Shown in pieces: positions 15,255 to 57,128 of a stretch of 64,000 bases of DNA. The DNA comes from Gluconacetobacter diazotrophicus PA1 5 (GTDB taxonomy: Bacteria > Pseudomonadota > Alphaproteobacteria > Acetobacterales > Acetobacteraceae). Where the stretch lies: NCBI RefSeq assembly GCF_000021325.1, contig NC_011365.1, forward strand, positions 806,001 through 870,000, given 5' to 3'. The stretch's first letter is position 1. Every line of letters starts with the position of its first letter. The notes under the pieces are model-generated. The model ran no database searches. It had not been told where the DNA came from and was given only the letters and a program-made list of their open reading frames with translations. The translations under genes and the position numbers were made by a program.

Positions 15255-15259
15255 GGGCC

Positions 15260-16615: not shown

Positions 16616-16634
16616 CGCGCGGGGAGATGGTCCC

Positions 16635-25926: not shown

Positions 25927-25975
25927 GGAACGGGACCCGTCACCGCGATGTTCGATGGGTCCTGATCGTTGGGGA

Positions 25976-27463
25976 CTATGCCACGCTGCTTCCGACCATC
26001 TGGGACAGAGCGACCGGCCCCGGGACATGCGGCCACACCGGCGTTGACGGAATGTCCGGCCGGCCTTGGGTTTCATACGGCCAGCGGTTTTCCGCGGCCC
26101 ACACCCTGATGCGGGCGACCGCGGCGATCACCATGGCCATCATCAGGTAGAAGTCAGGAAACCCGATGGTTGGACCGGACATGATGGCCGCCACCATGCG
26201 CCCGGCCAGCGCGGCAAGACCACCATCGATCATCAGGCGTTCGGGACAGATGGGGACGAGGCGGCGGGCCTGCATGGCGCTTCGTACCAGTCGCACATCG
26301 AAGATCAGCATGCCCGCCACGCCGACGACGCCGATCGTCGAAAGCAGGCTGGGAATGAGACTGGAGGCCCGGTTGCTTCCCCAGCCGCTGCCCAGCCCGA
26401 ATGTCTGCGGCACCACCGCCAGCGCGTCGCGGTCGGCCATCGACCGTTCCTGATAGGATTCGGAATCCTGTTTGTCGGCGGTCGATTGGAACACCAGTTC
26501 CATCGCCGGCAGCAGGCGCGGCTCGATCGTGATCAGGACCAGTGACCCGAAGCCCGCAATCGCCGCGCCGATGGCGAGGAAACGGCCGACACGGCCGAAC
26601 AGCCGGATCGAACCGGTGGCCAGCGCCGCCGCGGGAAGGATCAGGAATCCCACGGCCATCGTGGCGAAACCGGTTGTGGATGTGGTGGTGAGCAGGGCGA
26701 CGGCGGCAACCGGAATCAGGGCCCGCAGCATGCGCAGGCGATATCCCTGCAGTCCGGCCCAGATCGTGGAATACAGAATCCCCGACAGGTAGGCGCCGCA
26801 TGCCGATGGTTCGGTGAACGATCCGTTGATGCGGGGCACCGACCCGGCCATCTGCCCGTCGAAGATAACCCATCCGGGATTGGAATACAGAAAGGCGGAG
26901 GGAAACGGCACGCCGGCCAGCCGGTGCGCGAGCTGCCAGAAGCAGAGTATGCAGACCACCCAGCCACTGAAAAGATACGCGCGATACAGGCGGTCGATCC
27001 GGATATCGGCCCGCGTCAGGAATCCCGCCGCCAGGACCGTGAGCATGACGTTGACCATCAGATAGATATCCTGGGTGATGTTGCCGAAACTGGGGGCCAG
27101 CAGGACCTGCTGCGCGGTGGAATCATTCCTCTGCGGCCACACCAGGACGCTGTTCATGAACACGCGCGGCAGAATCACCGAACCCAGGACGGCCCACGCC
27201 GCCGTCAGCACGAAAGGCATATAGAGCGCGCGCGCCGCCCGGTCCCCCGGATAGCGCGCGCCCAGCATGCGTTGCAGCATGGCGTAGGATATGAAGCCCA
27301 GGGTCGGCACCAGGACCGGCTGCACCCCCCCGCCGCCCAGAACCAGCGCCGCCGCCGCCGGAAAGGCCCCCGCCAGCAGCAGGACTTCCAGCATCCTGGC
27401 GGGCCGCAGCCACAGCAGGAAGCAGAGGGGAAAAACGATAAGGCCGAAAAGAGGTACGGACAC
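25976..27463 (-). CDS. O-antigen ligase/polymerase-like membrane protein (Wzy/GumE-like)
   Basis: A 495-residue protein with about twelve hydrophobic segments and a central large loop, as in Wzy polymerases and O-antigen ligases. The loop contains GSFTEPSACGAYLSGILYS, and a second conserved-looking stretch is ERSMADRDALAVVPQTFGLGSGWGSNRASS with the Arg/Gly pattern of the family. In Wzx/Wzy systems it would join flipped repeat units in the periplasm. It starts with GTG at 27463, with GGAGG nine bases upstream. A lack of strong sequence motifs in this family limits certainty, but its locus has all other Wzx/Wzy components. Confidence 0.8.
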   Translation of the reverse strand: MSVPLFGLIVFPLCFLLWLRPARMLEVLLLAGAFPAAAALVLGGGGVQPVLVPTLGFISYAMLQRMLGARYPGDRAARALYMPFVLTAAWAVLGSVILPRVFMNSVLVWPQRNDSTAQQVLLAPSFGNITQDIYLMVNVMLTVLAAGFLTRADIRIDRLYRAYLFSGWVVCILCFWQLAHRLAGVPFPSAFLYSNPGWVIFDGQMAGSVPRINGSFTEPSACGAYLSGILYSTIWAGLQGYRLRMLRALIPVAAVALLTTTSTTGFATMAVGFLILPAAALATGSIRLFGRVGRFLAIGAAIAGFGSLVLITIEPRLLPAMELVFQSTADKQDSESYQERSMADRDALAVVPQTFGLGSGWGSNRASSLIPSLLSTIGVVGVAGMLIFDVRLVRSAMQARRLVPICPERLMIDGGLAALAGRMVAAIMSGPTIGFPDFYLMMAMVIAAVARIRVWAAENRWPYETQGRPDIPSTPVWPHVPGPVALSQMVGSSVA

Positions 27464-41710: not shown

Positions 41711-42904
41711 ATGACCGAATTACTGCAATTCGCGGACCGCTACAGGACCATCGATGAATCTCGGATTCTGAAGGCGCTTCTGCTTTTGGGCTGGGCGTTC
41801 ACCGACGATACCGCGCATGCCCTGGCCATGACGCGCCAGGCGCTGGACCGGTGGATCGGGTCCGGCCTGCAATTCCACCGGGATCGTCTGGGACAGCGCC
41901 TGTTCGATCCGGTGGAGGTAGTACATTTCCTGAAATCGCGCGGGCGGCAGGGACAGGATGATTTCTGGTCCTCATGCTACGTCCCGACCAGCCGGCTGCT
42001 GGTCGGGGAACTGGGCGGCCGCGACAGCCCGCATATGGACATCACCATCGGGCGCACGTTCGCCCGCGGTGCGTTCGCCCCCGACAGGACGCTGCGGCTA
42101 CGCATGCCGCTGCCGTTGCGATCGCGATGCGATTATCTGGATGTCCGGCCCTGGCCCTGCGACGGGGGGACGATCAGCATCAGCGACGGCCGCATGGATG
42201 TGCGGATCCGTCCGGACGGGCAAGGCGACATCACGATCGGGGCGGATGTCTTCCTCGCTCCCCTGCCGGACGGCGGGCCCGAGGATGACGCCGATCGCGA
42301 GATCTTCCTTCGTCCCAGCGAAGGCCTGATCAGGATCACGGATCCGGTCGCGGCGCTTGCACGCCGCCTGGCCGGGACGGCACCGACGGAACGGGCCGTG
42401 CGGGCCTTCTGGTCCTTCATCATGGACGAACTGATCAACAGCCCGGTCCATTACGATCAGATCCGGGCCGACGCCCCCCTGGACTGGGTCCTGGAGGCCG
42501 GATGCTACGACTGCCAGCTTGGCGCGGCGCTTCTGATCGGCCTGTGCCGCGCGCGGGGTATTCCCGCACGCCTGGTGGGCGGCCATTTCCTGTACCGGCA
42601 TTCGCCGACCCTTCATTACTGGGCCGAAATCTGGACGGAGGATGCGGGATGGCGTCCGTTCGACTTCATGAGCTGGGACCTGTCCCACGGCGGACAGGAT
42701 TCCGCCTGGCGCGACCATTTTTACGGGCGGACCGATGCCCGGATGATCACGCAGTGCCTGCCGCGCCGCTGCGTGGGGCCCGTGGGCGTCGCCATACCCG
42801 CCACCTGGCGCGTGCTGCAGACCGCGCGCGGCAAGGGTGTGGATATCGACATGGTCGGGCTGGATGGCGCATCGATCTACACCGACCGGGTCACCGTCAT
42901 ATGA
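41711..42904 (+). CDS. Transglutaminase-like superfamily protein, first gene of an unusual operon
   Basis: A 397-residue protein without signal peptide. The C-terminal half has a transglutaminase-core fold: EAGCYDCQLGAALLIGLCRARGIPARLVGG with candidate nucleophile Cys265 (or Cys268), HYWAEIW with His302, and GWRPFDFMSWD with Asp318, so the Cys-His-Asp triad is complete. Bacterial members are often proteases or amidases rather than crosslinkers. The first 80 residues include a helix-turn-helix-like stretch (TRQALDRWIGSG), and residues 85-200 appear beta-rich. Its stop overlaps the next gene (ATGA), so it is coupled to the SGNH-like/GT2/E1 genes. Substrate unknown. Confidence 0.8.
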   Translation: MTELLQFADRYRTIDESRILKALLLLGWAFTDDTAHALAMTRQALDRWIGSGLQFHRDRLGQRLFDPVEVVHFLKSRGRQGQDDFWSSCYVPTSRLLVGELGGRDSPHMDITIGRTFARGAFAPDRTLRLRMPLPLRSRCDYLDVRPWPCDGGTISISDGRMDVRIRPDGQGDITIGADVFLAPLPDGGPEDDADREIFLRPSEGLIRITDPVAALARRLAGTAPTERAVRAFWSFIMDELINSPVHYDQIRADAPLDWVLEAGCYDCQLGAALLIGLCRARGIPARLVGGHFLYRHSPTLHYWAEIWTEDAGWRPFDFMSWDLSHGGQDSAWRDHFYGRTDARMITQCLPRRCVGPVGVAIPATWRVLQTARGKGVDIDMVGLDGASIYTDRVTVI

Positions 42905-43701
42905 AACGTCTGACGCTGTTTTCCAAAGGCAATGTCGATATCCACGACACGCTGCATTCCTGCCGCATCGGCGGCGTGCTGCAGTGGAACGGAATCAACG
43001 ATGCCCTGCGGGAGTCCTGGCCCGGCGTGTCCGCCCGCGTCCGGCACGAAACCTGGACACGGTCCGACGCCCTGCTGGCGGCCGGCGGCACGATCCCGGC
43101 CTCGCTGGCCGCCCGCGACATTCCGCTGGGCAGCTATCCGATGAAGAGCCAGTTCAGCACCGCGATCTTCACGACCGAGGCCGATGCGATCCTGCTCTCG
43201 ATCCAGGCCGACATCACGACGAAGCTGGGCCGTCATCGCAGCGAGGGCTACCTGCTCTATCCCAACGATATCGCGACATGGCGCGACGAGGACAGGGCCT
43301 GGTTCCGCTCCGAATTCGATATGATCGGGCTTCTGGACGTCGAGGAGTCCATGCGGCATCTCGACGCCCTGATCGGAAGGATTCGCGAAACGCGGGACGT
43401 TCCGATCCTGGTCTATAACCTGTCCCCGGTCATACCGGGCGATACGACCCATTGCTACATGGGCCTGGACGAGACGTTTCCCGTCCGCATACGGCGTTTC
43501 AACCAGGGACTGATCGACCTTTCGGGCACCACCGGCATATCGATCGTCGATGTCGATACCATTGTCGCCCGTCATGGCGCGGATCGGCTGAAGCTCGATA
43601 CCGTCCATCTGACGCCGGAAGGATACCGGCGCGTGGCGGAGGAAGTCGTGCGGATTCTCGCCGACCTGGGTGTCCTCGACAGCACGGAGGAAGCAAGATG
43701 A
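42901..43701 (+). CDS. SGNH-hydrolase-like protein lacking the usual GDS serine
   Basis: A 266-residue protein of SGNH/GDSL-like layout. The block-V Asp-x-x-His is clear (Asp233 and His236 in LDTVHLTPEGYRRVAEEV), and LVYNLSPVIPG sits where the Asn block is expected, but the N-terminal block reads LFSKGNVDIHDTL, with Val in place of the nucleophilic Ser of GDS. It may be a binding protein or use another nucleophile. It overlaps both neighbours with ATGA junctions. Its middle (DAILLSIQ and so on) resembles the large SGNH-like protein at 47966-49330, indicating paralogy within the cluster. Confidence 0.75.
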   Translation: MKRLTLFSKGNVDIHDTLHSCRIGGVLQWNGINDALRESWPGVSARVRHETWTRSDALLAAGGTIPASLAARDIPLGSYPMKSQFSTAIFTTEADAILLSIQADITTKLGRHRSEGYLLYPNDIATWRDEDRAWFRSEFDMIGLLDVEESMRHLDALIGRIRETRDVPILVYNLSPVIPGDTTHCYMGLDETFPVRIRRFNQGLIDLSGTTGISIVDVDTIVARHGADRLKLDTVHLTPEGYRRVAEEVVRILADLGVLDSTEEAR

Positions 43702-44756
43702 GAGCGAGCGTCGTCATTCGTTCCCGCAACGAAGCGGACCGGCTGCGCCTGACCCTGGCATCGCTTGCCAGCCAGACCGAGGCCGCGGAAGTCGTCGTCG
43801 TCAATGACGGGTCCACCGACCATACGGCGGAGGTCATCGAAGACGCCAGGGCCGAACTGGATATCGTGTCCGTTCACCATGCCCGCCCGGCCGGGCGATC
43901 GGCGGCGGCCAATACCGGCGGCACCCATGCCACGGGGGACATCCTGATCTTCCTGGATGGCGACACCCTTGCCGGGCCCGACCTGGTCGCGGACCATCTG
44001 GCGATCCACCGCCAACGGCCCGGCGTGGTGGTCCGTGGCGAGAACTTCCATCTGCGCTGCACCCGCCCGTTCCTGGACCCCGAACGCGGCACGCCCCGGC
44101 CCGGCGAGGAAGAACGGGTCGCGCGCATGTCGGAGGCCGAACGGGCGCGGGCGATCGTCACCCGCGCGCAGGTCACGCAGCGGTTCGATGAAATTGACCA
44201 TCGCGCCCAGGCCGGCGTCTATCCCGGTTTCGGCCCGCGCAAGCTGTACGAACTGGAAATGGAGGCCCTGCGGGCGGAAGGGGATTGCGGCGTCCTGTGG
44301 GCTGCCGCCGCCGGTGCCAACCAGTCGGTGCCGCGCGATGCCTTCGCCCGTGCGGGGGGATTTCATCCCGACATATCGATCAACGAACATCGCGAACTGG
44401 CACTGCGCCTGTGCCAGGCGGGGCTGAAGATGGTGGCCGGCGCGGCACGCAGCTATCACTTGATCCATCGTAGCGGCTGGCGGGACCCGCTGGAGGACAA
44501 GGACTGGGAGGACATCTTCTACCAGGCCCATCCGCGCGCCGACGTCGCCCTGCTGCCGCTGCTGTGGCAGAGCCTGAGCGACACCGCGATCATTCCGGAA
44601 GATTTCCGCATTCTGTCGCTGCCGCACCTGGCCGAGATCGCCGGGTCCTACGAGGGCCTGCCCAGCCGCGAGGCCGTGCGCGAGGCCTACATGGCGGCAC
44701 GGGAAGCGACGCTGTCGGAGTCCGACATTCGTTCCAACATTCCCTGGGGAACATGA
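43698..44756 (+). CDS. Glycosyltransferase family 2 with extended C-terminal domain
   Basis: A 352-residue GT-A transferase. The core is MRASVVIRSRNEADRLRLTLASLASQ, VVVVNDGSTDHTAEVIEDA and GDILIFLDGDTLAGPD (DxD motif), with GANQSVPRDAFARAGGFHPDISINEHRELALRL later. An insert between about residues 115 and 190 (charged, helical) and a C-terminal 80-residue extension ending in ESDIRSNIPWGT are not part of the basic fold. It is embedded between two SGNH-like genes by ATGA overlaps, so it is likely a committed step of this module rather than part of the gum-like operon. Confidence 0.88.
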   Translation: MRASVVIRSRNEADRLRLTLASLASQTEAAEVVVVNDGSTDHTAEVIEDARAELDIVSVHHARPAGRSAAANTGGTHATGDILIFLDGDTLAGPDLVADHLAIHRQRPGVVVRGENFHLRCTRPFLDPERGTPRPGEEERVARMSEAERARAIVTRAQVTQRFDEIDHRAQAGVYPGFGPRKLYELEMEALRAEGDCGVLWAAAAGANQSVPRDAFARAGGFHPDISINEHRELALRLCQAGLKMVAGAARSYHLIHRSGWRDPLEDKDWEDIFYQAHPRADVALLPLLWQSLSDTAIIPEDFRILSLPHLAEIAGSYEGLPSREAVREAYMAAREATLSESDIRSNIPWGT

Positions 44757-45613
44757 CCATGGCACAGGTTTCCATGACAGCTTTCGTATCGGATTCGGAA
44801 CAGCCGGCCGTCGCCTGCGCCGCCGATTTCCTGACCGAGGGATTGCGGCAGGAAGGCACCCCGCTGTCCTGCACGATGGTGGCCAGCATGGATGATCTGC
44901 CGGGCGCACCGGCCGATTCCATCCGCCTTTCATCCCTCGTCCCCTGGGTCGAGACGCTGGACACGCCATGGCCGGTGCTGGAGCAGCAGATCCGGCAGCA
45001 CTATGCGACGCTGTGCGCAGGCGGCGCACCGGTTCTGATTGCCACGGTGTTCCGCCATGTCGGCCCGCAGGCGGACCCCGACCGGTCCGATGTCCTGCTG
45101 GTGCGGATCCGTCGGCTGAACCTGCTGGCGGCCGAACTGTCGCGCGAATATGGCGCCTTCGTCATCGACCTGGACCGGATATTCGCCGATATCGGGGCCC
45201 TGCGGCTGGAGACCGACTACCGTCTGGACGGCGCGGCGGCCCGCGAACTGGCCGGACATGCCGTGGCGCTGGGCATCGTGGATAACGGGTTGGACGCCGT
45301 CCTGCCGTACGAGGCGCAGGAGCGCGTGAAGGCGGTCATTGCCGCCCGTCGTCCCGCGACGCGGCCGCCCCCGGAAATCACGCCGAGAAACATGGTGACC
45401 ATGGGCAAGGGACGGCGGCGGCAGGTCGTCTCGACGATCACCGACACCGACCAGGAGAACCAGGTCGGCCGGCTGATCCGGCTGGTGATGAAACGGCAGA
45501 TGGACCCGGCGCAGGCCATGGAAAAACTAGTCCATGCCGTGCGCAAGCGCGGCGTGCAGGAAAGCCTGGGCCTGCTGACCACCGGCGTCATCCGCGCATT
45601 CGGCGCGAGGTAG
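44753..45613 (+). CDS. Divergent SGNH-like protein without catalytic residues
   Basis: A 286-residue protein that I relate to the SGNH-like proteins of this cluster by its alternating strand-helix pattern: DSIRLSSLVPWVETL, APVLIATVFRHVG, VLLVRIRRLNLLAAELSREYGAFVIDLDRIFADIG and YRLDGAAARELAGHAVALG. The last element sits where block V should be, but there is no Asp-x-x-His. A C-terminal basic tail (KGRRRQVVSTITDTDQEN and beyond) follows. It begins in an ATGA overlap with the GT2 gene and ends 2 bases before E1-alpha. Function unknown; a non-catalytic scaffold or substrate-binding role is possible. Confidence 0.65.
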   Translation: MTMAQVSMTAFVSDSEQPAVACAADFLTEGLRQEGTPLSCTMVASMDDLPGAPADSIRLSSLVPWVETLDTPWPVLEQQIRQHYATLCAGGAPVLIATVFRHVGPQADPDRSDVLLVRIRRLNLLAAELSREYGAFVIDLDRIFADIGALRLETDYRLDGAAARELAGHAVALGIVDNGLDAVLPYEAQERVKAVIAARRPATRPPPEITPRNMVTMGKGRRRQVVSTITDTDQENQVGRLIRLVMKRQMDPAQAMEKLVHAVRKRGVQESLGLLTTGVIRAFGAR

Positions 45614-45615
45614 AC

Positions 45616-46551
45616 ATGAGCCATATCGATCGTATCGAGGCCCTGCGCGACATGATGCTGATCCGGGCCTTCGAGGAGGCGCTGTCGGCGCGCAAGGACC
45701 ATGGCTTCCAGCTTCTGTCGTCGGGCGAGGAAGCGGTTGCCGTCGGCCTGGCCTCGGCGCTGGAGGCGGGCGATCAGTTGCTGACCGGTGGACGGTCGAT
45801 CGGCCCCATCCTGGCACGCGGCGTGGCGCCCGAGCGGGTCATGGCCGAACTGCTGGGCCGGACCGGCGGCATGAATCGCGGGCGCGCCGGCCGTGGCCAC
45901 ATGTCGGCGCCCGATGACGGCTTTTTCGGCGCGCACGCGGTGGTGGGCGGCAATATCAGCATCGCGGCCGGGGTGGCGCTGGCCCGGCAGATGGACGGGA
46001 CCGGCGGCATTGTCGTCATCCTGTTCGGCGACGGTGCCTGCGGCGCCGGGGCGCTGCACGAAACGCTGAACATGGCGGCCCTGTGGAAGCTGCCGCTGCT
46101 GTTCGTGTGCAACAACAACCAGCTTTCGGTTTCGACCGCGCGCGAGGCTGCGCTGGCCGTCCCGCGCCTGTCGGACCTGGGGGCCACGTTCGGATTGTGG
46201 GCCCGGACGATCGACGGGCTGGATGTCGGCCTGGTCGCCGCCACCGCCGCCGAGGCCGTCCGCCATGTCCGCGACGGACGGGGGCCGGCCTTTCTGGAAT
46301 GCACGTCCATCCGCCTGCGCTCGCACTCCACCACGGCGCGGGAGACCCGCAGCCGGGCCGAACTGACCGCGCTGCGGACGCATTGCCCGATCGAGCGCAC
46401 GATCACGGCCCTGCGGACCGAAGGCATCCTGGATGCGGCGGATCTGGAGCGGATGCAGCAGCAGGCGACCAGCCGCGCGACACAGGCCCTGGCCTATGCC
46501 GACGCCTCACCCTACCCGGACGCAGAGGAGGTCCTGCATCATGTTGGATAG
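45616..46551 (+). CDS. 2-oxoacid dehydrogenase E1 component, alpha subunit (TPP-dependent)
   Basis: A 311-residue thiamine-diphosphate enzyme subunit of the pyruvate/acetoin/branched-chain dehydrogenase E1-alpha family. The TPP/Mg motif runs from GDGACGAGALHETLN (GDG at 138-140) to the NN pair (166-167) in FVCNNNQLS, and GRAGRGHMSAPDDGFFGAHAVVGGNISIAAGVALA is the conserved active-site loop region. It is the short form, typical of acetoin or biosynthetic types. It overlaps the beta-subunit gene by 11 bases. With E1-beta it would decarboxylate a 2-oxo acid and acylate a lipoyl domain; the substrate cannot be read from sequence. Confidence 0.88.
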   Translation: MSHIDRIEALRDMMLIRAFEEALSARKDHGFQLLSSGEEAVAVGLASALEAGDQLLTGGRSIGPILARGVAPERVMAELLGRTGGMNRGRAGRGHMSAPDDGFFGAHAVVGGNISIAAGVALARQMDGTGGIVVILFGDGACGAGALHETLNMAALWKLPLLFVCNNNQLSVSTAREAALAVPRLSDLGATFGLWARTIDGLDVGLVAATAAEAVRHVRDGRGPAFLECTSIRLRSHSTTARETRSRAELTALRTHCPIERTITALRTEGILDAADLERMQQQATSRATQALAYADASPYPDAEEVLHHVG

Positions 46552-47530
46552 CCATGGCCTGACAACCACCCGGATGTTCTTTCGCGAGGGCGTCGCGCGC
46601 GCCGTCCGCGAGGAAATGACGCGTGATCCCCGTATCCTGATCATGGGGCAGGACGTCGGGGCCTTCGGCGGTTCCTACCGGGAATTCGATGGGCTGTACC
46701 CGATCTTCGGGCCCGGGCGCATTCGCGACACGCCGGTGGCGGAAGCCGCCACCATCGGAATTGCCGCCGGCGCCGCCGCCGCCGGGTATCGCCCGCTGGT
46801 CAGCATCACCTACATGGATTTCCTGATGCTGGGCTTCGACGCGCTGATCAATTACGCGGCCAAGCTGCGCTATAAATCGGCCGGGACCCTGACGGCGCCG
46901 CTGGTGGTGAAGACGACGGCCGGCGCGCACGGCCAGGGCGTGGCCCATTCGCAATGCATCGAGGCCTGGCTGATGAGCGTCCCGGGCCTGACGGTCGTGG
47001 CGCCGGCCACCCCGGCCGACGCCTACGGGCTGATGAAGACGGCCCTGCGGCATGACGGGCCCGTCGTCTATATCGACCACAAGCGGCTGTTCCCCGCCCC
47101 GGGCGAGGTGCCGGTGATCGAGGAACCGGTTCCCTTCGGGCAGGCCTGCGTCCGGCGCACGGGGCGGGACGTGACGCTGGTCACCCATGGCTACATGGTC
47201 CAGGTGGCCCTGGAGGCGGCGCGCGCGCTCGAATACCAGGACATATCCTGCGAAGTCATCGACCTGCGCAGCCTGGCGCCGCTGGACATCGGAACCGTGA
47301 CGGCGTCCGTCGCGCGGACGGGGCGATTGCTGACCCTGGAGGAAGGCCAGACCGTCTGCGGCGTCGGCGCCGAGGTGGCCAGCCAGATGTTCGAACGGAT
47401 CGGCCCCAGGCCGTGGATCCGCATCGGCGCCCTTCCCGCGCCCGTTTCATCGAATCCGGTTCTGGAGACGGCGTGCGTTCCCGATGCGGCACGCGTTGCC
47501 CGAACCGTGTGCGCGCTTATGGCGCAATAG
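46541..47530 (+). CDS. 2-oxoacid dehydrogenase E1 component, beta subunit
   Basis: A 329-residue E1-beta subunit. It has RILIMGQDVGAFGGSYREFDGLYPIFGPGRIRDTPVAEAATIGIAAGAA with the TPP-activating glutamate Glu68, KTTAGAHGQGVAHSQCIEAWLMSVPGLTVVAPATPADAYGLMKTAL, and the C-terminal transketolase domain with VIDLRSLAPLD and RLLTLEEGQTVCGVGAEV. All expected blocks are present, so the enzyme looks active. The start at 46541 lies inside the E1-alpha end. No E2 catalytic or E3 gene follows; instead a free lipoyl domain is encoded 137 bases downstream. Confidence 0.9.
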   Translation: MLDSHGLTTTRMFFREGVARAVREEMTRDPRILIMGQDVGAFGGSYREFDGLYPIFGPGRIRDTPVAEAATIGIAAGAAAAGYRPLVSITYMDFLMLGFDALINYAAKLRYKSAGTLTAPLVVKTTAGAHGQGVAHSQCIEAWLMSVPGLTVVAPATPADAYGLMKTALRHDGPVVYIDHKRLFPAPGEVPVIEEPVPFGQACVRRTGRDVTLVTHGYMVQVALEAARALEYQDISCEVIDLRSLAPLDIGTVTASVARTGRLLTLEEGQTVCGVGAEVASQMFERIGPRPWIRIGALPAPVSSNPVLETACVPDAARVARTVCALMAQ

Positions 47531-47633
47531 AGCAGATCGTGGTCGGGTGAAATCACCTGACCACGTGAAGATGCTCGGAAAACAAAAGACTGGAGCAATT
47601 CAGCTGGTTCTATCCGATGACTGATTGCTCCAG
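47530..47633. repeat. Composite element of two palindromic units between E1-beta and the lipoyl gene
   Basis: Unit 1 (47530-47576) has an inner 13-bp stem, 47538-47550 against 47553-47565, with one G-T wobble, and an outer GAGCA/TGCTC stem. Unit 2 (47590-47633) has CTGGAGCAAT against ATTGCTCCAG, perfect over 10 bp and extendable to 13 with one bulged T, around a 17-base loop. Both contain GAGCA. The structure resembles REP/RIME-type intergenic palindromes of proteobacteria. It could act as mRNA stability or attenuation element within the operon. Confidence 0.6.
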
Positions 47634-47667
47634 AGCGCGATCGACCACCCAAACCAGGAAAACATGC

Positions 47668-47973
47668 ATGATCTACCAATTATCCGTTCCCGCCGCGGTG
47701 CCCGGGGTCGAGGAAATTCGTATCCTCGAATGGCATGGCGATGCCGGGACCGCCTTTGCGCCGGGCGACCTGATTGTCGAACTGGAGACCCACAAGGCGG
47801 TCGTCGAGGTGCGGGCGGGCCAGGCCGGCATCCTGCGGGCAATTCACGCCCAGCCCGGCGACTGGTGCGCGGTCGGGCTGCGGCTGGCGCTGTTCAGCGA
47901 CGAGGCGGACGAGCCCCTGCCCGACGGGGATGTCGCGGCAGCCGACATCCCCGTCGCGTTCGAAATTACCTGA
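47668..47973 (+). CDS. Free-standing lipoyl (biotinyl/lipoyl-attachment) domain protein
   Basis: A 101-residue protein that is a single lipoyl-domain hammerhead: EIRILEWHGDAGTAFAPGDLIVELETHKAVVEVRAGQAGILRAIHAQPGDWCAVGLRLALF (parts). The attachment turn is ETHKA, with Lys43 in the position of the lipoylated lysine of ETDKA. No E2 catalytic or subunit-binding domain follows. It has an AGGA ribosome site. By context it would be the acyl acceptor of the adjacent E1. Its 3' end overlaps by 8 bases the 3' end of the oppositely oriented SGNH-like gene, a tail-to-tail overlap. Confidence 0.82.
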   Translation: MIYQLSVPAAVPGVEEIRILEWHGDAGTAFAPGDLIVELETHKAVVEVRAGQAGILRAIHAQPGDWCAVGLRLALFSDEADEPLPDGDVAAADIPVAFEIT

Positions 47974-49330
47974 CCAGGGCGGCAGGAGTTCCGACCGGTC
48001 GCGTTTCCGACAGCGCCTGGAGGATCTCCTGCCTCAGGGCCACCGCCATCTGTCCGCTTTGGTGAATTCCGTCCGGCAGATGCATGCCCCCGCCGAGTTC
48101 GGCACCCAGCGCGTCGACGTCGATGATGGTCAGGTCGCGGCTTTCCGCCACGTCATGCAGCATCAGGTTCCATTCCTTGGCGGCGATATTGGACAGCGTG
48201 TCGCTGAGCGGGGCATCGAAGGCCAGGTAGCTGGAGATATCCTCGTATCCCGACGTCGACATGCGATTGAGCACCATGACGCGGCTTCTGGTCGTGGCGG
48301 CCAGGGTATCGATCAGCGTTTCGTAATCGCGGCGGATCGCATCCACCGGGCGCCTGACCGATTCGAAGGAACCGGCGATCCACGCCCGGATGGCCGGGCC
48401 CGCCGCCGCCAGGTGGTGACGTATGACATGCAGGGGGTAGCCCAGCGTCCGGTGACGCAGGATCGCCTGCGGTTCCACGCTCAGGGACAGCAGAACGGCG
48501 TCCGGCGGCCCGAGACGGGTCGAACCGTCGGCACCGAACACCGTGTAGCGATCCTTCAGCGGTGCGTTCTGCAGGACCGACAGCAACGCCCCGGCGAACA
48601 TCCAGTCATCCGCCGTCGGCGCCACCGCCCCGCTGCCCAGGAAACGCCGCAGATCCTCGGCGATCGCATCGAACTGCGCCGGAGTCCGCGACAACTGGTC
48701 GATCAGGATCGGCGTGCAGGGGGCGACGGGATGATCGGGCACAAAGACGAACTGCGAGGATCGCCGTTCGGCTTCGAACATTTCCAGGAACGCGGATTGC
48801 TCGCCCAGTACGACGCCGGCCGCGTCGCAGACCCCCATGCTGAGCAGCGTGACAGGTGTCTCCCCGTCCTCATGCCACCACGCGCGGCTGCGTCCGAACC
48901 AGCCGGAAAGCAGGCCCGCATGCACGTCGGCCAGGGCCGTCATCCGCCGCCCGGCCAGCATCAGCAGACGAAGGCGCCCCGGATCGTCGTCCTGGACCTC
49001 GCCGTCGGGTTCGATATGGCCCAGGATCGTATTCGGGTCCCATGTATCGACACCGCGAATGGCCAGGTAGCCGCCGCGGGCCATGTCGTCCTGCACGGTC
49101 AGGCGGCCGGACACACGGGGCGCGAAGGCCACCTGCATCTCCAGTTCCCCGGCCATGGACGCGCCGGCGGCAATCCGCACACCCGATGGTTCCAGGCTGA
49201 TATTGCAATAGGCGACCGGCTGACCGGCCCGACAGAACTGGCCGGATTCACGCAGCCAGCGCAGGCTGGAACGAACAATGGTATAGCCGTCGGCCTTGAG
49301 CGCGCCGAAACGCAGGGGAATCCTGTTCAT
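47966..49330 (-). CDS. Large SGNH-like protein with beta-rich N-terminal region
   Basis: A 454-residue protein without signal peptide. Residues 1-120 are beta-rich and include ESGQFCRAGQPVAYCNISL, which resembles one half of a lipoyl/biotinyl hammerhead. Residues from about 190 on form an SGNH-like domain with DAVLLSLS, RVMVLNRMSTSGYED (Asn-block-like) and a clear block V, LPDGIHQSG, with Asp420 and His423. I cannot place a GDS serine with confidence. It resembles the product of 42901-43701 in its C-terminal half. It is coupled by ATGA overlap to the upstream lipoyl-like gene. A hydrolase or O-acyltransferase acting on the acyl carrier is a plausible but unproven role. Confidence 0.72.
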   Translation of the reverse strand: MNRIPLRFGALKADGYTIVRSSLRWLRESGQFCRAGQPVAYCNISLEPSGVRIAAGASMAGELEMQVAFAPRVSGRLTVQDDMARGGYLAIRGVDTWDPNTILGHIEPDGEVQDDDPGRLRLLMLAGRRMTALADVHAGLLSGWFGRSRAWWHEDGETPVTLLSMGVCDAAGVVLGEQSAFLEMFEAERRSSQFVFVPDHPVAPCTPILIDQLSRTPAQFDAIAEDLRRFLGSGAVAPTADDWMFAGALLSVLQNAPLKDRYTVFGADGSTRLGPPDAVLLSLSVEPQAILRHRTLGYPLHVIRHHLAAAGPAIRAWIAGSFESVRRPVDAIRRDYETLIDTLAATTRSRVMVLNRMSTSGYEDISSYLAFDAPLSDTLSNIAAKEWNLMLHDVAESRDLTIIDVDALGAELGGGMHLPDGIHQSGQMAVALRQEILQALSETRPVGTPAALVR

Positions 49331-49695
49331 GAATGCCGTCCTGTCCACATGCCGTCGTGATGAATGATACCGGCCACGGTGCAGCGCACCGGCCGATCCA
49401 CCTCCTGATCCAGGGATTCGTCGGGATCGGTGGAAAACAGCGCCAGACGATCGCCAAGGGCGCAGTACTGTCCCGGCGACAGGTCGATCCGCCGCAGGAA
49501 GACGGCCTCGCGCAGCACCACTCGATAATAGGAAACCGGCGGACATTCCTGGGCAAACGCACTGCTGAGATCGACGCTGAGGTCCATCAGCTTGCTGCCC
49601 ATCCGCAGCGCCGCATCGGGCGCGGCATAGACACATTCCGTGGTCGCGCCGGACATCTGGGGAATGAGTGAAGTGAGCTTGAATTCATAGAGCAT
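49327..49695 (-). CDS. Lipoyl-like domain protein without an attachment lysine motif
   Basis: A 122-residue protein whose C-terminal half, DLSPGQYCALGDRLALFSTDPDESL, closely parallels GDWCAVGLRLALFSDEADEPL of the free lipoyl protein 1.4 kb away. The ETHKA turn is replaced by a different, longer segment (SSAFAQECPPVSYYRVVL), so it should not be lipoylated. It may be a structural paralogue that pairs with the carrier or the SGNH-like enzyme. It starts at 49695, next to a long divergent promoter region, and its stop overlaps the next start (ATGA). I know of no named family for it. Confidence 0.62.
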   Translation of the reverse strand: MLYEFKLTSLIPQMSGATTECVYAAPDAALRMGSKLMDLSVDLSSAFAQECPPVSYYRVVLREAVFLRRIDLSPGQYCALGDRLALFSTDPDESLDQEVDRPVRCTVAGIIHHDGMWTGRHS

Positions 49696-51571: not shown

Positions 51572-51952
51572 CTATTGCGCGCGTGCCATGATGACGACGC
51601 CGGACAGAATCACCAGCAGGCCGATGATTCGCGTGGGGTGGATCTGCTCGCCCAGCAGGACGATGCCCGCCCCCACGGTCATGACGATGCCCAGCGCAAC
51701 GCAAGGATAGGCCTGGGAGACGTCGATACGCGCCAGGACCAGAAGCCACACGACGGCGCTGGAACCGAAGGCCAGCAATCCCAGCACGATCGACGGATTC
51801 AGCGCCACCGCCGCGAAGACCTGTCGCAGGTCGGACCGGGTGGCGATCACGGCCTGCACCGACGGGGCGGACATCCCCATCTTCAGCAGGATCTGGGCCG
51901 AGGACGACAATAGAACGCTGAACAGCACGAGAGAAACCGTCCCGAATTTCAT
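51572..51952 (-). CDS. SMR/EamA-type four-helix membrane protein
   Basis: A 126-residue protein with four hydrophobic helices, as in small multidrug resistance and ArnE/ArnF-like proteins. Elements are SLVLFSVLLSSSAQILLKMGMS with the Ala-Gln-Lys pattern of EamA halves, DVSQAYPCVALGIVMTVGAGIVLLGEQIH and RIIGLLVILSGVVIMAR. In glycolipid gene clusters such proteins are thought to flip undecaprenyl-linked sugars. CAGGAG lies eight bases before the ATG, and it shares an ATGA junction with the upstream membrane protein gene. No SMR glutamate in the first helix is seen, which argues against cation drug export. Confidence 0.8.
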   Translation of the reverse strand: MKFGTVSLVLFSVLLSSSAQILLKMGMSAPSVQAVIATRSDLRQVFAAVALNPSIVLGLLAFGSSAVVWLLVLARIDVSQAYPCVALGIVMTVGAGIVLLGEQIHPTRIIGLLVILSGVVIMARAQ

Positions 51953-53703
51953 GATTGGGTGCTCCTGGAGGAAAAGAGGCAAAGCCGTCCGAAACGGGCG
52001 AGGGGCGGTCGCGGGTCGGTCCGGGCGCAGCCATCGACGACATAGGCGATGCCGTTCCGGGCCGCGTAATCCAGACGGTCCGGCAGGGTCTTCAGTGCCC
52101 GGACTTCGGTGATTCTGGCGTGCCACGTGGGGTAATAGGCGGGCGCCCACATCACCGCCGCCCCCGCGGGGGACGAGACCCATGACTGCCGATGGGAAAA
52201 ATAGGTGAAGACGGGCGCCCCCTCTGAAAGCCCGTCCTGAAACGCGTCGTTCTTCGCCGACATGCCCATTCCCCATGATATCCCGGGCGGGTTGAGGAAC
52301 AGGGCGTCCACGGCCGTATGAGCCCGCGCCCATGTGCCCAGGGCCTGCCAGTCGTCGCGCTTCTGGACGGCGACCCGGCTTGAAACGGCGGCGCGATAGA
52401 TCAGTGCCACGTTGAAGGCGACCCCGGCCAGCAGGAGCGCCGGCGCCGCGTAACGGCGCAGGCCGACCGCCACCGCCGGCCGCCACCGCCGCACCACCAG
52501 AAGCACGAGGACCAGCGGCATGAAGATCTTGAGCGTGCAGGACAGCACAAAGAGCAAGGGGGCCCACACGAGGCGATCCGACGCCGTGCCGGAAAAGACC
52601 CACCTGGTCGCCAGTGCGGCGACGGCGATGGCCGACAACATGTGAACCGTGCTGCCCGAGCGCAGCAGATGCAGGTTCAGCAGCAGGCGGGAATGGCTGA
52701 GGAACGGAAGAAACACACCCGCGATCCAGACGGAGGCCGCCCCCCACAACGCGGCCTTCAGGGCGGCGCGCGATGTCGGCAGCATCGACGCGGTCGCAAG
52801 GCCGCAGCAGAAAATGACCGCAAGCAGGCCCTGTTCCCGGTGGCTCGTGCTCCAGATCAGGAAATGGTACGGGAAGAACGACTGCAGGAAGCCGACATAG
52901 TCGAAGGAAGGTGCCTCCCGCGTATAGGGGTTGGCCAGGATGTTATGGACAACCGGAGCGGCGAACGCCGCAAGGATCCCGACCCCCCAGGCCGCCTGAC
53001 GCGCGAGCGTACGCCCGGCCACTCCGTGGTGCCGCCAGTGCGACCAGATGATGAAGACGAGTGGCACCAGGGTCCAGACACCGACGAACGCATTCAGGAA
53101 GAACGTCACCCCGTTCACGGCCAGCGAAGCGGTGATCCGTCCCCGTCCGGCCCAGACCAGCGCCAGGAGCATCGTGCCGTTTGCCATTTCGGAGTGCGTG
53201 AAACTGCTGATCAGCAGGCCACCCACGCCGGCATTGGAAAATCCCCGGATCGTCGATGAAAGCAGGACGAGGGCCGTGAATGTCGCCACCTCCATCACGG
53301 ATCCGCATTCCAGAAGGGTCGCCCATTCCATGATGCTGAACACCAGGATCATGCGCGACAGAATCTGGAAGGCGAACAGGATCGTATAGACATGGGGCCC
53401 GTTCGCGCTTCCGGACAGCATCTGCCAGAAGCCGGATGCGTAGAAGCGCAGGCTCTGTATGAACGGGTCGGTCGCGAATTGCGGCTCGTGATACAGGCCC
53501 GCCAGGATCGGCATCTGATAGTAATTGTTCTCCTCCCCGGCGGCGTATCCCGACAGGGCCAGCGAAAGCAGCGTTCCGACCAACATGACGGCGAACGTCG
53601 CGCGCCGGTCGGGCACGGGCCTGGCATGGTCGGGAAACGACCAGGGGCGCACGGCCGCCGGGGCTGGCGCTTCCAGGGGCGGGAAGGTATCGGACAGGTT
53701 CAT
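51949..53703 (-). CDS. Multi-pass membrane protein, GT-C-like, paralogue 1
   Basis: A 584-residue protein with roughly twelve helices and a soluble C-terminal domain of about 130 residues. The N-terminal loop after the first helix reads NNYYQMPILAGLYHEPQFATDPFIQSLRFYASGFW (in parts), and further blocks are NGVTFFLNAFVGVWT and FFPYHFLIWSTSHREQ. The C-terminal part (DDWQALGTWARAHTAVDALFLNPPG, then FTYFSHRQSWV) resembles that of uncharacterised membrane proteins of the DUF6798 kind. The topology fits a GT-C glycosyltransferase but the function is not established. It is a tandem duplicate of the next gene. TGGAG lies nine bases before the start. Confidence 0.72.
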   Translation of the reverse strand: MNLSDTFPPLEAPAPAAVRPWSFPDHARPVPDRRATFAVMLVGTLLSLALSGYAAGEENNYYQMPILAGLYHEPQFATDPFIQSLRFYASGFWQMLSGSANGPHVYTILFAFQILSRMILVFSIMEWATLLECGSVMEVATFTALVLLSSTIRGFSNAGVGGLLISSFTHSEMANGTMLLALVWAGRGRITASLAVNGVTFFLNAFVGVWTLVPLVFIIWSHWRHHGVAGRTLARQAAWGVGILAAFAAPVVHNILANPYTREAPSFDYVGFLQSFFPYHFLIWSTSHREQGLLAVIFCCGLATASMLPTSRAALKAALWGAASVWIAGVFLPFLSHSRLLLNLHLLRSGSTVHMLSAIAVAALATRWVFSGTASDRLVWAPLLFVLSCTLKIFMPLVLVLLVVRRWRPAVAVGLRRYAAPALLLAGVAFNVALIYRAAVSSRVAVQKRDDWQALGTWARAHTAVDALFLNPPGISWGMGMSAKNDAFQDGLSEGAPVFTYFSHRQSWVSSPAGAAVMWAPAYYPTWHARITEVRALKTLPDRLDYAARNGIAYVVDGCARTDPRPPLARFGRLCLFSSRSTQS

Positions 53704-53740
53704 GTCAGGTCGCTCCAGCCGCCCAGGGACGTGGCTTCCG

Positions 53741-55465
53741 TCATGCTGCGGAATGTTGCGGAACGGCGAAGACGCACAGCCGGCTGAATTGGGCGACCGG
53801 TACCGGCGAATCGGATTGGCCGCAGCCATCGACCACGTAGGACATGCCGTGCCGATCGGCATAGCGCAGACGGTCGGGCAGGCTCTTCAGCCGGCGGACA
53901 TCCACCATCCTGTCATGCCATTCCGGGTAATAGGCGGGCGCCCACAGCACGTTCGCACCGGCACGCGGGAACACCCAGGCTCTACGATGCGAAAAATAGG
54001 AAAAAACGGTGTTCCCGATCGCCAGTTCGTTCTGGCCGGCGTCACCCTTGGGAAGCAGGCTCGCCTCCGGCAGCAGGTCGATCGGGATCAGGAACATCGC
54101 GCGCACCGGCGTCTGTATCCGCGCCCAGGTGCCCAGGGCCTGCCAGTCGGCCCGCTTCGCCAGGAAAGTGTGGTCGAACGCCATGGTATGGTAGATGCGC
54201 ACCCCGCAGAACAGGATCGTCATCAGCAGCAGAACCGGTGCCATGACGGAAAGCCGCGGATTGGACAGGAAGCGCCACGGCCGGCGCCGCAGCAGCAGAA
54301 CCAGCAGCATGAACGGCGCCAGGATCTTGAGGGTGCAGGACGCCAGCATGAGGGCCGGCGCCCACAGGGTGCGGTCCATGGTATTGCGCGAGAACACCCA
54401 CCGGGTCGTCAGCGCGGCGACGGCAATCGCCGCGAGCATGTACACGGTGGTACCCGACCGCAGGAGGTGCAGGTTCAGCAGCATGCGGGAATGCGTTGCG
54501 AAGGGCAGGACGGCACCCGTCACCCAGACCGCGATCGCCCCCCACAGGGCGGTCGTCAGAAAGGCATTGGGTCGGCGCAGCATCATGGCGGCGAGCATTC
54601 CGCTGCAGAACATTGCGGGGAAGATAACCTTGTCCCGGATGGAGATGTCCCAGACCAGGAAATGATAGGGGAAGAACGCTTCCAGGAAGGCGATGTAATC
54701 GAAGGGCGGCGTGACCGTGACATAGGGATTGGCCAGCATGTTGCGAACGACCGGGACGGCCAGGACGACGAAACACGCCAGGCCGGGCGCCGCCTGAATC
54801 CCAAGCGTCCGCAGGGTCCAGTCCTTCCGCCGCCATTGGCGCCAGAGGATGAAGGCCAGGGGAACGGCGGTCCAGACGGCCACAAAGGCATTGAGGAAAA
54901 ACGTCACGCCGTTGATGGCGAACGCGGCACCGATCCGCCGCCGTGCCGCCCAGGCCAGCGCGATCAGCGTCGTCGCGTTCGCGACCTCCGATTGCGTGAA
55001 ACTGTCGATCAGAAGCCCCCCCGCCCCTGCTTCGGCATAGCCCTGAAGGATCGACGCGAACGCGACGAGCGTCGTGAACACGATCCGTTCCCTGACGCTG
55101 TCGAAACCCAGCAGGCTGGCCCAGGCCAGCATGCCCGCGAACAGAAGCATGCGTGACAGGATCAGGAAAAAGAACAGGATTCCGAAGACCTGGGGGCCGT
55201 TGATGGTCCCGGACAGAATTTGCCAGAAACCGGAGGAGTAGAAGCGCAGGCTTTGAATGAACAGGTCGTCCGCGAACTGGGGTTCATTGTAAAGCCCCGC
55301 CAGAATGGGAAGGTGGTAGAAATTGTTCACCTGCCCGCCGGCATATTGGGACGAGATCAGGGACAGCAGGGTCCCCCAGAGGACGATCCCGAGCGTGACG
55401 CGCCAGTCCGACGCCCTGTGCGTCTCCAGGGCCGCCTCATGATGCATCGGCAGAGAAATCGTCAT
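53741..55465 (-). CDS. Multi-pass membrane protein, GT-C-like, paralogue 2
   Basis: A 574-residue protein aligned along its whole length with the preceding one: NNFYHLPILAGLYNEPQFADDLFIQSLRFYSSGFW (in parts), NGVTFFLNAFVAVWT, FFPYHFLVWDISIRD, WQALGTWARIQTPVRAMFLIP and VFSYFSHRRAWV. Both keep the acidic residues of the first periplasmic loop, which are candidate catalytic positions if these are GT-C enzymes. The start is one base after the HAD-UbiA stop, so the genes are co-transcribed. Gene order HAD-UbiA, paralogue 2, paralogue 1, SMR-like suggests a lipid-linked sugar pathway. Confidence 0.72.
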   Translation of the reverse strand: MTISLPMHHEAALETHRASDWRVTLGIVLWGTLLSLISSQYAGGQVNNFYHLPILAGLYNEPQFADDLFIQSLRFYSSGFWQILSGTINGPQVFGILFFFLILSRMLLFAGMLAWASLLGFDSVRERIVFTTLVAFASILQGYAEAGAGGLLIDSFTQSEVANATTLIALAWAARRRIGAAFAINGVTFFLNAFVAVWTAVPLAFILWRQWRRKDWTLRTLGIQAAPGLACFVVLAVPVVRNMLANPYVTVTPPFDYIAFLEAFFPYHFLVWDISIRDKVIFPAMFCSGMLAAMMLRRPNAFLTTALWGAIAVWVTGAVLPFATHSRMLLNLHLLRSGTTVYMLAAIAVAALTTRWVFSRNTMDRTLWAPALMLASCTLKILAPFMLLVLLLRRRPWRFLSNPRLSVMAPVLLLMTILFCGVRIYHTMAFDHTFLAKRADWQALGTWARIQTPVRAMFLIPIDLLPEASLLPKGDAGQNELAIGNTVFSYFSHRRAWVFPRAGANVLWAPAYYPEWHDRMVDVRRLKSLPDRLRYADRHGMSYVVDGCGQSDSPVPVAQFSRLCVFAVPQHSAA

Positions 55466-55466
55466 G

Positions 55467-56912
55467 TCACGACGCCGCCAGGAAGATCATGATCGAGCAT
55501 GCGACGGCAACGCAGCTCGTGCGGTCGCGCAACGCCCAGATGACCGGGTCGTCATGCATGTGCCGCCGATGGGCGACGATCAGCACCCGGCCCAGCAGGA
55601 AGAGCAGGATCGGTGACAGCAGCCACAGCATATCGGGGTGCCGGTACGTCGCCTTGACCGAATCCGATGCGATATACAGCGAAAAGACCGTCACCGCGTT
55701 GGTCCCGGACGCCGCCGCCAGGGACGCCAGTACCACCAGGTCGTCCTTCTTGTAGTCCCGGCTGCTGGAATCCGGCAGGTTCGCATCCAGCCGGGTCAGC
55801 AATTCCGTATAGCGCTTGATAAGGGCCAGGGACGTGAACACGAACAGCGAAAATGCCAGGATCCATTCCGACAGGACGATCCCCGTCGCCGCCGCGCCCC
55901 CGACCAGCCGGGCCGTGTACAGCAGCGCAAGCCCCACCACGTCCCCCAGTTTCTTGCGCTTCAGCCAGAAGGAATAGCCCGTCGTCAGCACGACGTAGCC
56001 GAACAGCGTGACGCTGAAGATCAATGGCAGGAACAGGCAGAGCGCGATGGCGCACAGTCCCAGTATCGGGATCGCGGCCAGCGCCGCGTGGATCGACACC
56101 CTGCCGCTGGCCAGCGGGCGCCTTTTCTTGGTGGGATGCGACCGGTCGTCACGCAGATCCACCAGGTCGTTCACCAGATAGATGGCCGATGCCGAGGCGC
56201 AGAAGGCCAGGAAGGCGGCGCAGCTTTGCAGCAGGACCGTCAGGCTGAACGCATGGGCGGCCAGGGCCGGCAGAAAGACCAGGACGTTTTTCGCATATTG
56301 ATGGACACGCAGGGCGCGCGCCCATGTCTTCAGCGACTGGGGCGGCTTGTCCAGGATTTCGACGCGGTCTGGGCCCGATGCGTGCAGCTTGCGCCGCGAC
56401 CCGCCATCCAGCCCGATCGCGTGACATCGCCGCGCGTGGCGCCAGATTTCCAGGTCGTCACGATGATTGCCGACATAATCGAAGCCTTTTTCTCCGAAGG
56501 CTTCGACGAGGACGCGGGCCTTGTTCGCGCCCGACAGGTTGTTGTGCGTGTCGCTGGCGAATATTCCATCGAACCCGCCCAGATGCTGGGTCACGGCCCG
56601 CGCGTAGCGTTCGTTCGAAGCCGTGGCCAGGAAGATCGGCCGCCCCTGGGCCCGCGCCTGGTCGATCAGGTCCAGAACCGCGTCCTGGTAGGGTAGCGTC
56701 ATGGCATCGATTTCGACCCGCGAGGCCAGCGCATGCTTCAGGTGCGCCTTCCCCTTGGCCAGGGAGGAACACAGATGCGGAAGGCTGGCGAATTCCTGAC
56801 CGATACAGGCGAAAAACGATTCGATCAGCAGATCCGAGGCGATCAATGTGCCATCCAGATCCACGACCAATGGATATTGGGTGTCATGATCCAGCAATAA
56901 TGAGGAATCCAT
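55467..56912 (-). CDS. HAD-UbiA fusion, polyprenyl-phosphate transferase-like
   Basis: A 481-residue protein with an N-terminal HAD hydrolase domain (VVDLDGTLIASD with the DxDxT motif, then FLATASNERYARAV and FDYVGNHRDDLEIW) and a C-terminal UbiA prenyltransferase domain of about eight helices, with SASAIYLVNDLVDLRDDRSHPTKKRRPLASG holding the first Asp-rich motif. The fusion resembles decaprenyl-phosphate phosphoribosyltransferase relatives, in which the phosphatase domain could remove the 5-phosphate after transfer. The ATG at 56912 follows GGGGCGAG. It leads the operon of two GT-C-like proteins and an SMR-like protein; its upstream region is AT-rich. Confidence 0.85.
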   Translation of the reverse strand: MDSSLLLDHDTQYPLVVDLDGTLIASDLLIESFFACIGQEFASLPHLCSSLAKGKAHLKHALASRVEIDAMTLPYQDAVLDLIDQARAQGRPIFLATASNERYARAVTQHLGGFDGIFASDTHNNLSGANKARVLVEAFGEKGFDYVGNHRDDLEIWRHARRCHAIGLDGGSRRKLHASGPDRVEILDKPPQSLKTWARALRVHQYAKNVLVFLPALAAHAFSLTVLLQSCAAFLAFCASASAIYLVNDLVDLRDDRSHPTKKRRPLASGRVSIHAALAAIPILGLCAIALCLFLPLIFSVTLFGYVVLTTGYSFWLKRKKLGDVVGLALLYTARLVGGAAATGIVLSEWILAFSLFVFTSLALIKRYTELLTRLDANLPDSSSRDYKKDDLVVLASLAAASGTNAVTVFSLYIASDSVKATYRHPDMLWLLSPILLFLLGRVLIVAHRRHMHDDPVIWALRDRTSCVAVACSIMIFLAAS

Positions 56913-57128
56913 CTCTCGCCCCAATATATATATTAAATTTATGCGTAAAAATTCGGAAAATAATATTAGACGTTATTTAAATTTCTATACTTTTATGAAC
57001 TTGTATTCGCCGAACCCGACGGGTCGCCATCATTCGGCACGCGGATCATTGATGCGACCGCGAAAGCAACATCTTCCGGCGATGAAAGTTTCCCGCCCGC
57101 GACGGAATTCCGCCACGATGCCGGCGTG

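Follow-up and report, generated by a model that had tools for sequence, protein, structure and literature searches.

A nine-gene cassette with a dedicated E1, a free-standing lipoyl carrier and three SGNH paralogues in Gluconacetobacter diazotrophicus suggests a candidate lipoyl-based acyl-transfer pathway

The main known role of lipoyl domains is as arms, in dehydrogenase complexes and in glycine cleavage. Dedicated E1 alpha and beta subunits with a lipoyl domain have also been described for biosynthesis, in the quinocarcin (QncN/QncL/QncM) and scleric acid (SclQ1-4) pathways. According to the part of the source cited here (PMC6335953), these proteins supply a biosynthetic C2-acyl unit for which the proposed E1 donor is a ketose phosphate, and the lipoyl domain comes linked to an acyltransferase catalytic domain, which hands the acyl group to an acyl carrier protein (ACP) and a nonribosomal peptide synthetase (NRPS). 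In the Dlt system, as the cited portion of PMC12148441 presents it, an SGNH protein transfers acyl groups fed from a carrier protein. Here we analyzed a stretch of 64,000 nucleotides of Gluconacetobacter diazotrophicus PA1 5 (NC_011365.1, positions 806,001 to 870,000 of the forward strand; hereafter the window), which contains a cassette of nine genes encoding an E1 pair (E1-alpha and E1-beta), a lipoyl carrier (LIP), three SGNH-type proteins (SA, SB and SC), a second protein of the lipoyl fold (LL), a family 2 glycosyltransferase (GT2; the family GT) and a transglutaminase-like protein (TG). The cassette shares the dedicated E1 and lipoyl domain with the Qnc and Scl systems, but its LIP is free, and none of the nine proteins has a Pfam match to a Qnc/Scl-type acyltransferase domain, an ACP or an NRPS. 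We propose, with a probability of roughly 40%, that the products of the cassette form a cytosolic pathway of acyl transfer, with a free lipoyl protein as the acyl carrier instead of coenzyme A (CoA) or ACP.

The initial annotation, made from the DNA letters, had proposed a dedicated 2-oxoacid dehydrogenase E1, and Pfam matches and residue counts supported a thiamine pyrophosphate-dependent E1 with its catalytic residues. E1-alpha is closest to pyruvate dehydrogenase (PDH) E1-alpha at a score below the NCBIfam cut-off (271.9 vs 393.85 bits), with 38% identity to the PDH subunit of the genome and 33% to its acetoin-type subunit; there are five E1_dh matches in the genome, one of them weak. When positions were read from an alignment to 1ni4, the GDG...N motif and His237 were retained in 20/20 cassette E1-alphas (a count that leaves out one 66-residue fragment), and the equivalents of human PDHA1 Phe61, Arg90, His263 and GDG are kept. 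Glu and His residues equivalent to beta-59 and beta-128 are present in 19/19 E1-betas, one 75-residue fragment being left out, and the histidine at beta-128 has been implicated in lipoate acetylation in the section of PMC2663715 that we cite. All 20 cassette E1-alphas have Leu33, Gly59 and Ile62 at the places of human PDHA1 His63, Tyr89 and His92, whereas the corresponding residues of the two housekeeping alphas are His, Tyr/His and His. We take these positions, with their human PDHA1 numbering, to belong to the substrate pocket, whose alteration the initial annotation had missed. Because the catalytic residues are kept and three pocket positions of E1-alpha are replaced, the E1 looks lipoyl-active with an altered substrate pocket, as judged from the aligned sequences.

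The free lipoyl carrier proposed at the outset was supported by the Biotin_lipoyl match of LIP and by the invariance of its Lys43, found in 15/15 rows that represent the window and 14 of 16 loci, near duplicates excluded. By its motif, LIP has the modifiable lysine of a lipoyl domain. No GcvH match was listed for LIP, only Biotin_lipoyl in Pfam and E2 or biotin-carrier models in NCBIfam. In the 16 other loci measured, LIP follows E1-beta within 70 bases; the two genes are 28 bases apart in three Gluconacetobacter relatives and 137 bases apart in the window. The window gap contains inverted repeats at 47538-47565 (13-base arms) and 47590-47633 (10-base arms).

As the chief alternative on chemical grounds, the E1 pair might work without any carrier, as a carboligase that places a pyruvate C2 unit onto a sugar carbon and provides the GT2 with a branched sugar. 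AviB1/AviB2 of avilamycin, the model for such a role, are E1-like, and the altered E1-alpha pocket would fit another substrate. The cited part of PMC4753412 gives AviB1/AviB2 and Pau11/Pau12 as proposed installers of a C-4 acetyl branch from pyruvate, and C-4 branched octoses as present in Gram-negative O-antigens. However, a carboligase has no need of a lipoyl carrier, yet Lys43 is invariant and LIP lies close behind E1-beta at locus after locus, and the nine genes include no sugar-nucleotide genes, which makes this explanation unlikely.

Neither an E2 catalytic domain nor an E3 was found by tblastn in the window or in the 28 fetched cassette stretches, several of them short contigs, with two E2s and one E3 from the window genome as queries; at the cassettes these queries matched the carrier lipoyl domain alone. 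This agrees with the earlier claim that no E2/E3 set lies nearby. The two E2 catalytic domains (PF00198) of the genome are located at PDH and 2-oxoglutarate dehydrogenase (OGDH). One LipB-type gene is present, and LipA and the housekeeping E3 were recognized elsewhere in the genome by eye. The cassette thus resembles 2-oxoacid dehydrogenase complexes in the E1 alpha and beta catalytic residues and the lipoyl domain, but differs from them in its altered E1-alpha pocket, its free carrier and its want of an E2 catalytic domain and E3. An ordinary variant of these complexes, whose E1 and LIP would join the housekeeping E2 core and E3 and produce acyl-CoA for catabolism, would fit the 38-39% identity of the E1 subunits to the genome's own PDH subunits and the E2 and E3 genes elsewhere. 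We did not adopt an ordinary dehydrogenase operon as the main explanation, and even the variant appears very unlikely: no fetched cassette locus has E2 or E3, the three pocket positions differ from both housekeeping alphas tested in 20/20 E1-alphas, LIP is without E2 core-binding parts, and six linked non-dehydrogenase families would be left unexplained.

The linkage of the nine families also supports a carrier-based pathway. A contig search across the genomes of 84,980 species with the SA alignment as the query identified 23 loci, every one of which contains SA because SA was the query. The hosts are Gluconacetobacter (3), Nguyenibacter, Acidocella metagenome-assembled genomes (MAGs), Novosphingobium, Aureimonas endophytica and other Sphingomonadales and Rhizobiales MAGs, together with MAGs labelled Verrucomicrobia, Eremiobacterota, Kuenenia, Aromatoleum and Gammaproteobacteria; they are scattered and mostly alphaproteobacterial. 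One 51,412-base contig (L085, identical to L063; G300:C26) bears the NCBI label Candidatus Kuenenia against a GTDB-based placement in the class of the window genome. This label looks wrong, and the Verrucomicrobia and Eremiobacterota labels could likewise be binning errors. Outside the Gluconacetobacter group there are 19 loci (L068-L086), of which 12 contain all nine families, the TG of L083 being cut by the contig end, and five are contigs of 3.0-5.7 kb with two to five families. Most often SA-GT-SB-E1a-E1b-LIP and SC-LL face each other, and TG may stand on one side or the other. The 11-base overlap between E1a and E1b, present in the window, occurs in 18/19 loci, and the 4-base overlap between LL and SC in 9/13 loci measured.

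Within the genus, strong LIP matches (E below 1e-40) occur in 7/14 genomes, with weaker matches to E2 lipoyl domains in 14/14, and SC is present in the identical seven. TG was found in 6/13 genomes, corresponding to the LIP/SC set minus the second genome of the window's species, which the TG search did not include. Four congeners have the nine families inside one 20 kb stretch in a changed order, and in one more the cassette is interrupted by contig ends. Beyond the genus the families are rare: in an even sample at the class level, SC and SA were each found in 2/289 genomes, and at the phylum level SA was found in 1/398, the window genome itself, at the stricter E-value of 1e-10. Because these families turn up side by side repeatedly in genomes that are unrelated, their linkage is more than chance, and the co-occurrence expected in the initial annotation was borne out. 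The inter-family distance correlations of 0.78-0.93 (36 family pairs) fit joint inheritance, for which shared species history alone could suffice. Among 72,556 plasmid records, the query P0008 had zero matches and P0002 one match; a plasmid search with P0012 gave mostly unrelated TPR proteins.

All nine open reading frames are real and lie where the initial annotation had placed them (Table 1). Overlaps of four bases join 42901/42904, 43698/43701 and 44753/44756 on the plus strand and 49327/49330 on the minus strand. SC and LL are convergent with the plus-strand genes, and LIP and SC overlap by 8 bases. No conserved promoter or terminator was detected at the cassette, where site counts were no higher than in shuffles.

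Table 1. The nine genes of the cassette in window coordinates, with the matches and residues that characterize their products.
Product	Position	Strand	Matches and residues
TG, transglutaminase-like, 397 aa	41711..42904	+	Transglut_core 3.4e-15; Cys268, His302, Asp318 triad
SA (SGNH-A), 266 aa	42901..43701	+	Lipase_GDSL_2 3.1e-7 (below cut-off); KGNxD replaces GDS block, His236 kept
GT, family 2 glycosyltransferase, 352 aa	43698..44756	+	Glycos_transf_2 3.7e-22
SB (SGNH-B), 286 aa, degenerate SA paralogue, no block V His	44753..45613	+	SA profile match
E1-alpha, 2-oxoacid dehydrogenase type, 311 aa	45616..46551	+	E1_dh 1.4e-56
E1-beta, 329 aa	46541..47530	+	Transket_pyr 1e-36, Transketolase_C 7.8e-30
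LIP, free-standing lipoyl carrier, 101 aa	47668..47973	+	Biotin_lipoyl 2.3e-9; Lys43 in ELETHKA
SC (SGNH-C), 454 aa	47966..49330	-	SA profile match; Gly166-x-Cys168, His423
LL, lipoyl-domain homologue without lipoyl lysine, 122 aa	49327..49695	-	LIP profile match; Cys51

The SGNH-like identity suggested for three of the proteins was supported by Lipase_GDSL_2 for SA and SC and by profile comparison for SB. The Lipase_GDSL_2 matches of the three window proteins are all under the Pfam cut-off (3.1e-7, 0.0025 and 0.068); family-wide, the domain is matched by 22/22 SA and 8/14 SC members. Profile comparison with SA gave a probability of 97.3 (E 2.3e-11) for SB and 99.4 (E 4.9e-21) for SC, by which the three are paralogues, a relationship that the initial annotation had missed. 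Searches of the Protein Data Bank (PDB) with SC and SA profiles returned nothing relevant. SA conserves K9, G10, N11, D13 and H236 in 22/22 members, with the motif KGN[VL]D. SC, which consists of a beta-rich N-terminal part and an SGNH part, conserves G166, C168 and H423 in 14/14. SB conserves Asp155 in 18/18, with histidine absent at the place of block V. A block I serine nucleophile was found neither in SA (KGN[VL]D) nor in SC (Gly-x-Cys). In our alignment, Cys168 of SC reads as the place of the SGNH serine and KGN[VL]D of SA as block I. DltD, PatB and OatA likewise have an SGNH fold near an acyl donor, but these are extracellular proteins with a Ser-His-Asp triad and a membrane partner, whereas the cassette has the cysteine of SC, the KGNxD motif of SA and a degenerate SB, and no such membrane partner is linked to it.

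The ninth gene, at 49695, had been listed in the initial annotation, which overlooked that its product LL is a lipoyl-domain homologue of the carrier. LL has no Pfam match. Its family profile picked out lipoyl domains of E2 proteins among PDB entries (best E 3.1e-4) and matched the LIP profile with a probability of 97.4 (E 1.1e-11). A predicted model (pLDDT 88.4) resembles lipoyl domains, with Foldseek matches, modest in E-value, to 1ghj (TM 0.83, E 0.066) and 1gjx (TM 0.78, E 0.024; TM by target length). No lysine for lipoyl or biotinyl was found in LL; a longer stretch with Cys51-Pro52 is in place of the lysine hairpin in 16/16 rows, which represent the window and 15 of 17 loci.

TG retains its Cys-His-Asp triad in 16/16 aligned members and has relatives in the PDB (3isr, E 3.5e-7; 6g49, E 3.6e-6). 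The linked GT homologue in loci outside the closest relatives has 41-71% identity, and a second GT2 lies beside TG or LL in 7/23 loci, for example L068:10393-11208 (Glycos_transf_2 8.1e-14); none was noticed in the window. The invariant triad, in a cassette that is self-contained and patchy, could point to a pathway of the specialised-metabolite or peptide type. Its TG-like enzyme would couple an amine to an acyl group held as a thioester, as the transglutaminase homologue of andrimid synthesis does, giving a small intracellular or excreted product. In work attributed to Fortin et al. in 2007, which PMC5216899 lists among its references, a transglutaminase homologue is said to catalyze condensation on an assembly line for an antibiotic. 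On the other side, proteases and amidases are commoner among TG-like folds, some loci have TG apart from the other genes and L080 yielded none, there is no adenylation domain, and LIP is the sole carrier domain. We regard such a pathway as conceivable but somewhat unlikely.

The initial annotation had also favored a surface product from a position between two surface-polysaccharide loci. Upstream in the window, an undecaprenyl-phosphate (Und-P) sugar transferase, a Wzc-type protein, several glycosyltransferases and a flippase were recognized by eye, and the cassette has genes of the exopolysaccharide (EPS) type as neighbors in the Gluconacetobacter group, L070, L071 and L073. A gum cluster, GDI2535-GDI2552, has been described in Gluconacetobacter diazotrophicus in the portion of PMC2765452 cited here. 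The cassette could decorate the EPS of the upstream locus by acylation before export. But inspection by eye of the cassette surroundings in L072, L076, L077, L078 and L085 showed no EPS-type genes, so that an EPS locus does not always accompany the cassette, and by eye none of the nine proteins resembles a membrane protein or transporter. The surface setting therefore holds for part of the loci and is weak overall, and we would rather doubt than favor EPS decoration.

Several other neighbors were noted by eye. Minus-strand genes at 51572-56924 of the window encode a small multidrug-type transporter, two similar GT-C-like membrane proteins and a HAD-UbiA fusion; they look like a polyprenyl-phosphate sugar route, and their syntenic relatives sit between LIP and TG in L049 and L051. 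Acyltransferase-3-type proteins occur at 24670-26076 (minus strand) of the window and at L052:11458-12675, the latter between LL and TG. An AMP-binding frame at L063:5346-6740, PaaK/CapK-like by eye, lies just upstream of LL (Pfam AMP-binding 5.5e-5, below the cut-off).

From the cassette, its homologies, its conserved residues and the absence of E2 and E3, we infer a route whose lipoylation, acyl transfer and direction, together with its substrate, acceptor, product and chemistry and the parts taken by LL, SC and TG, might be as follows. The dedicated E1 would take a 2-oxo acid, or cleave a ketose phosphate, and reductively acylate lipoyl-Lys43 of LIP. LIP would then deliver the acyl group to the SGNH-type proteins in place of acyl-CoA as the donor. 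SC, with its Cys/His pair, would be the likeliest acyltransferase, SA its partner or a second enzyme, and SB a degenerate, perhaps structural, paralogue. LL, with a cysteine on the prosthetic hairpin, might cooperate with SC as a docking partner or a second acyl acceptor. The GT2 might make or extend the acceptor, for which the initial annotation had conjectured a glycan, peptide or lipid and on which the TG-like enzyme might form or break an amide, and the housekeeping E3 would re-oxidise the dihydrolipoyl group. A dedicated E1 would be used instead of acetyl-CoA probably because the acyl group is absent from the CoA pool.

This lipoyl-carrier mechanism is supported by the linkage of the nine families and their matching presence in the genus, by the invariant E1 residues and Lys43, by the presence of LipB, LipA and E3 in the genome, and by the confinement of the E2 catalytic domains to PDH and OGDH. 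The partnership of LL and SC is supported by the homology of LL to LIP and by its adjoining SC with the frequent four-base overlap. The Qnc and Scl modules serve as precedents for the acyl supply, and Dlt for SGNH transfer from a carrier. Other observations weigh against the mechanism. The nine-family set is not invariable, because L080 (9.8 kb contig) has SB, SC and TG missing and L084 (8.9 kb contig) has six families without E1 or LIP. Hydrolysis or transfer by SA or SB is doubtful, because SA is without the serine and SB without the histidine. The SC model has a pLDDT of 78.7, but the loop 416-423 around His423 is below 50, and Foldseek gave no match for SC at E 0.001 or better, which leaves the presumed proximity of Cys168 and His423 unsupported. 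The N-terminus of SC was also considered as a lipoyl domain, an idea prompted by its beta-rich model and a top Foldseek match to an E2 model (E 0.015), and is not claimed, because profile comparison, with probabilities of 2.4 and 23.5, gave it no support. We considered L084 as an E1-less variant as well and do not claim it; its contig begins 55 bases before SB.

A related arrangement is found on the Planktothrix agardhii plasmid NZ_LR882947.1 (L087), where three parts are adjacent at 13651-17241: an SA-like domain (28% identity), a protein that is hypothetical by annotation but lipoyl-like (profile probability 93.2), and a second SGNH protein, which has a GGCD motif. Unlike in the cassette, the SA-like part is fused to a methyltransferase and the second SGNH protein to TPRs, and there is no E1 or LIP; upstream lie ACP, AMP-binding and FAD pieces, of which the latter two look incomplete. 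This comparison hints that SA-LL-SC may be a core that different carriers can feed, and the ACP-fed variant is a lead only, because it is one record with seemingly incomplete AMP-binding and FAD pieces.

No published description of the nine-gene set was found in open-licence papers, and we know of no precedent for a carrier combined with three SGNH paralogues, a Cys-type lipoyl homologue, a GT2 and a TG. For the acyl-supply half of the system there is precedent. In its fullest form, which we put forward as tentative, the nine travelling genes would constitute an acyl economy free of CoA and ACP, in which an E1-charged lipoyl protein, a Cys-type SGNH protein and a lipoyl-fold relay or dock with a cysteine hairpin yield an acylated or amide-linked glycoside. 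The cassette is a defined nine-gene unit in the cultivable Gluconacetobacter, Novosphingobium and Aureimonas, and it adds several nameless protein families and a protein that resembles lipoyl domains but conserves a cysteine. If the proposed pathway is true, a free lipoyl carrier that is served by a dedicated E1 and feeds a non-E2 protein would join CoA and ACP as a third currency of acyl carriage.

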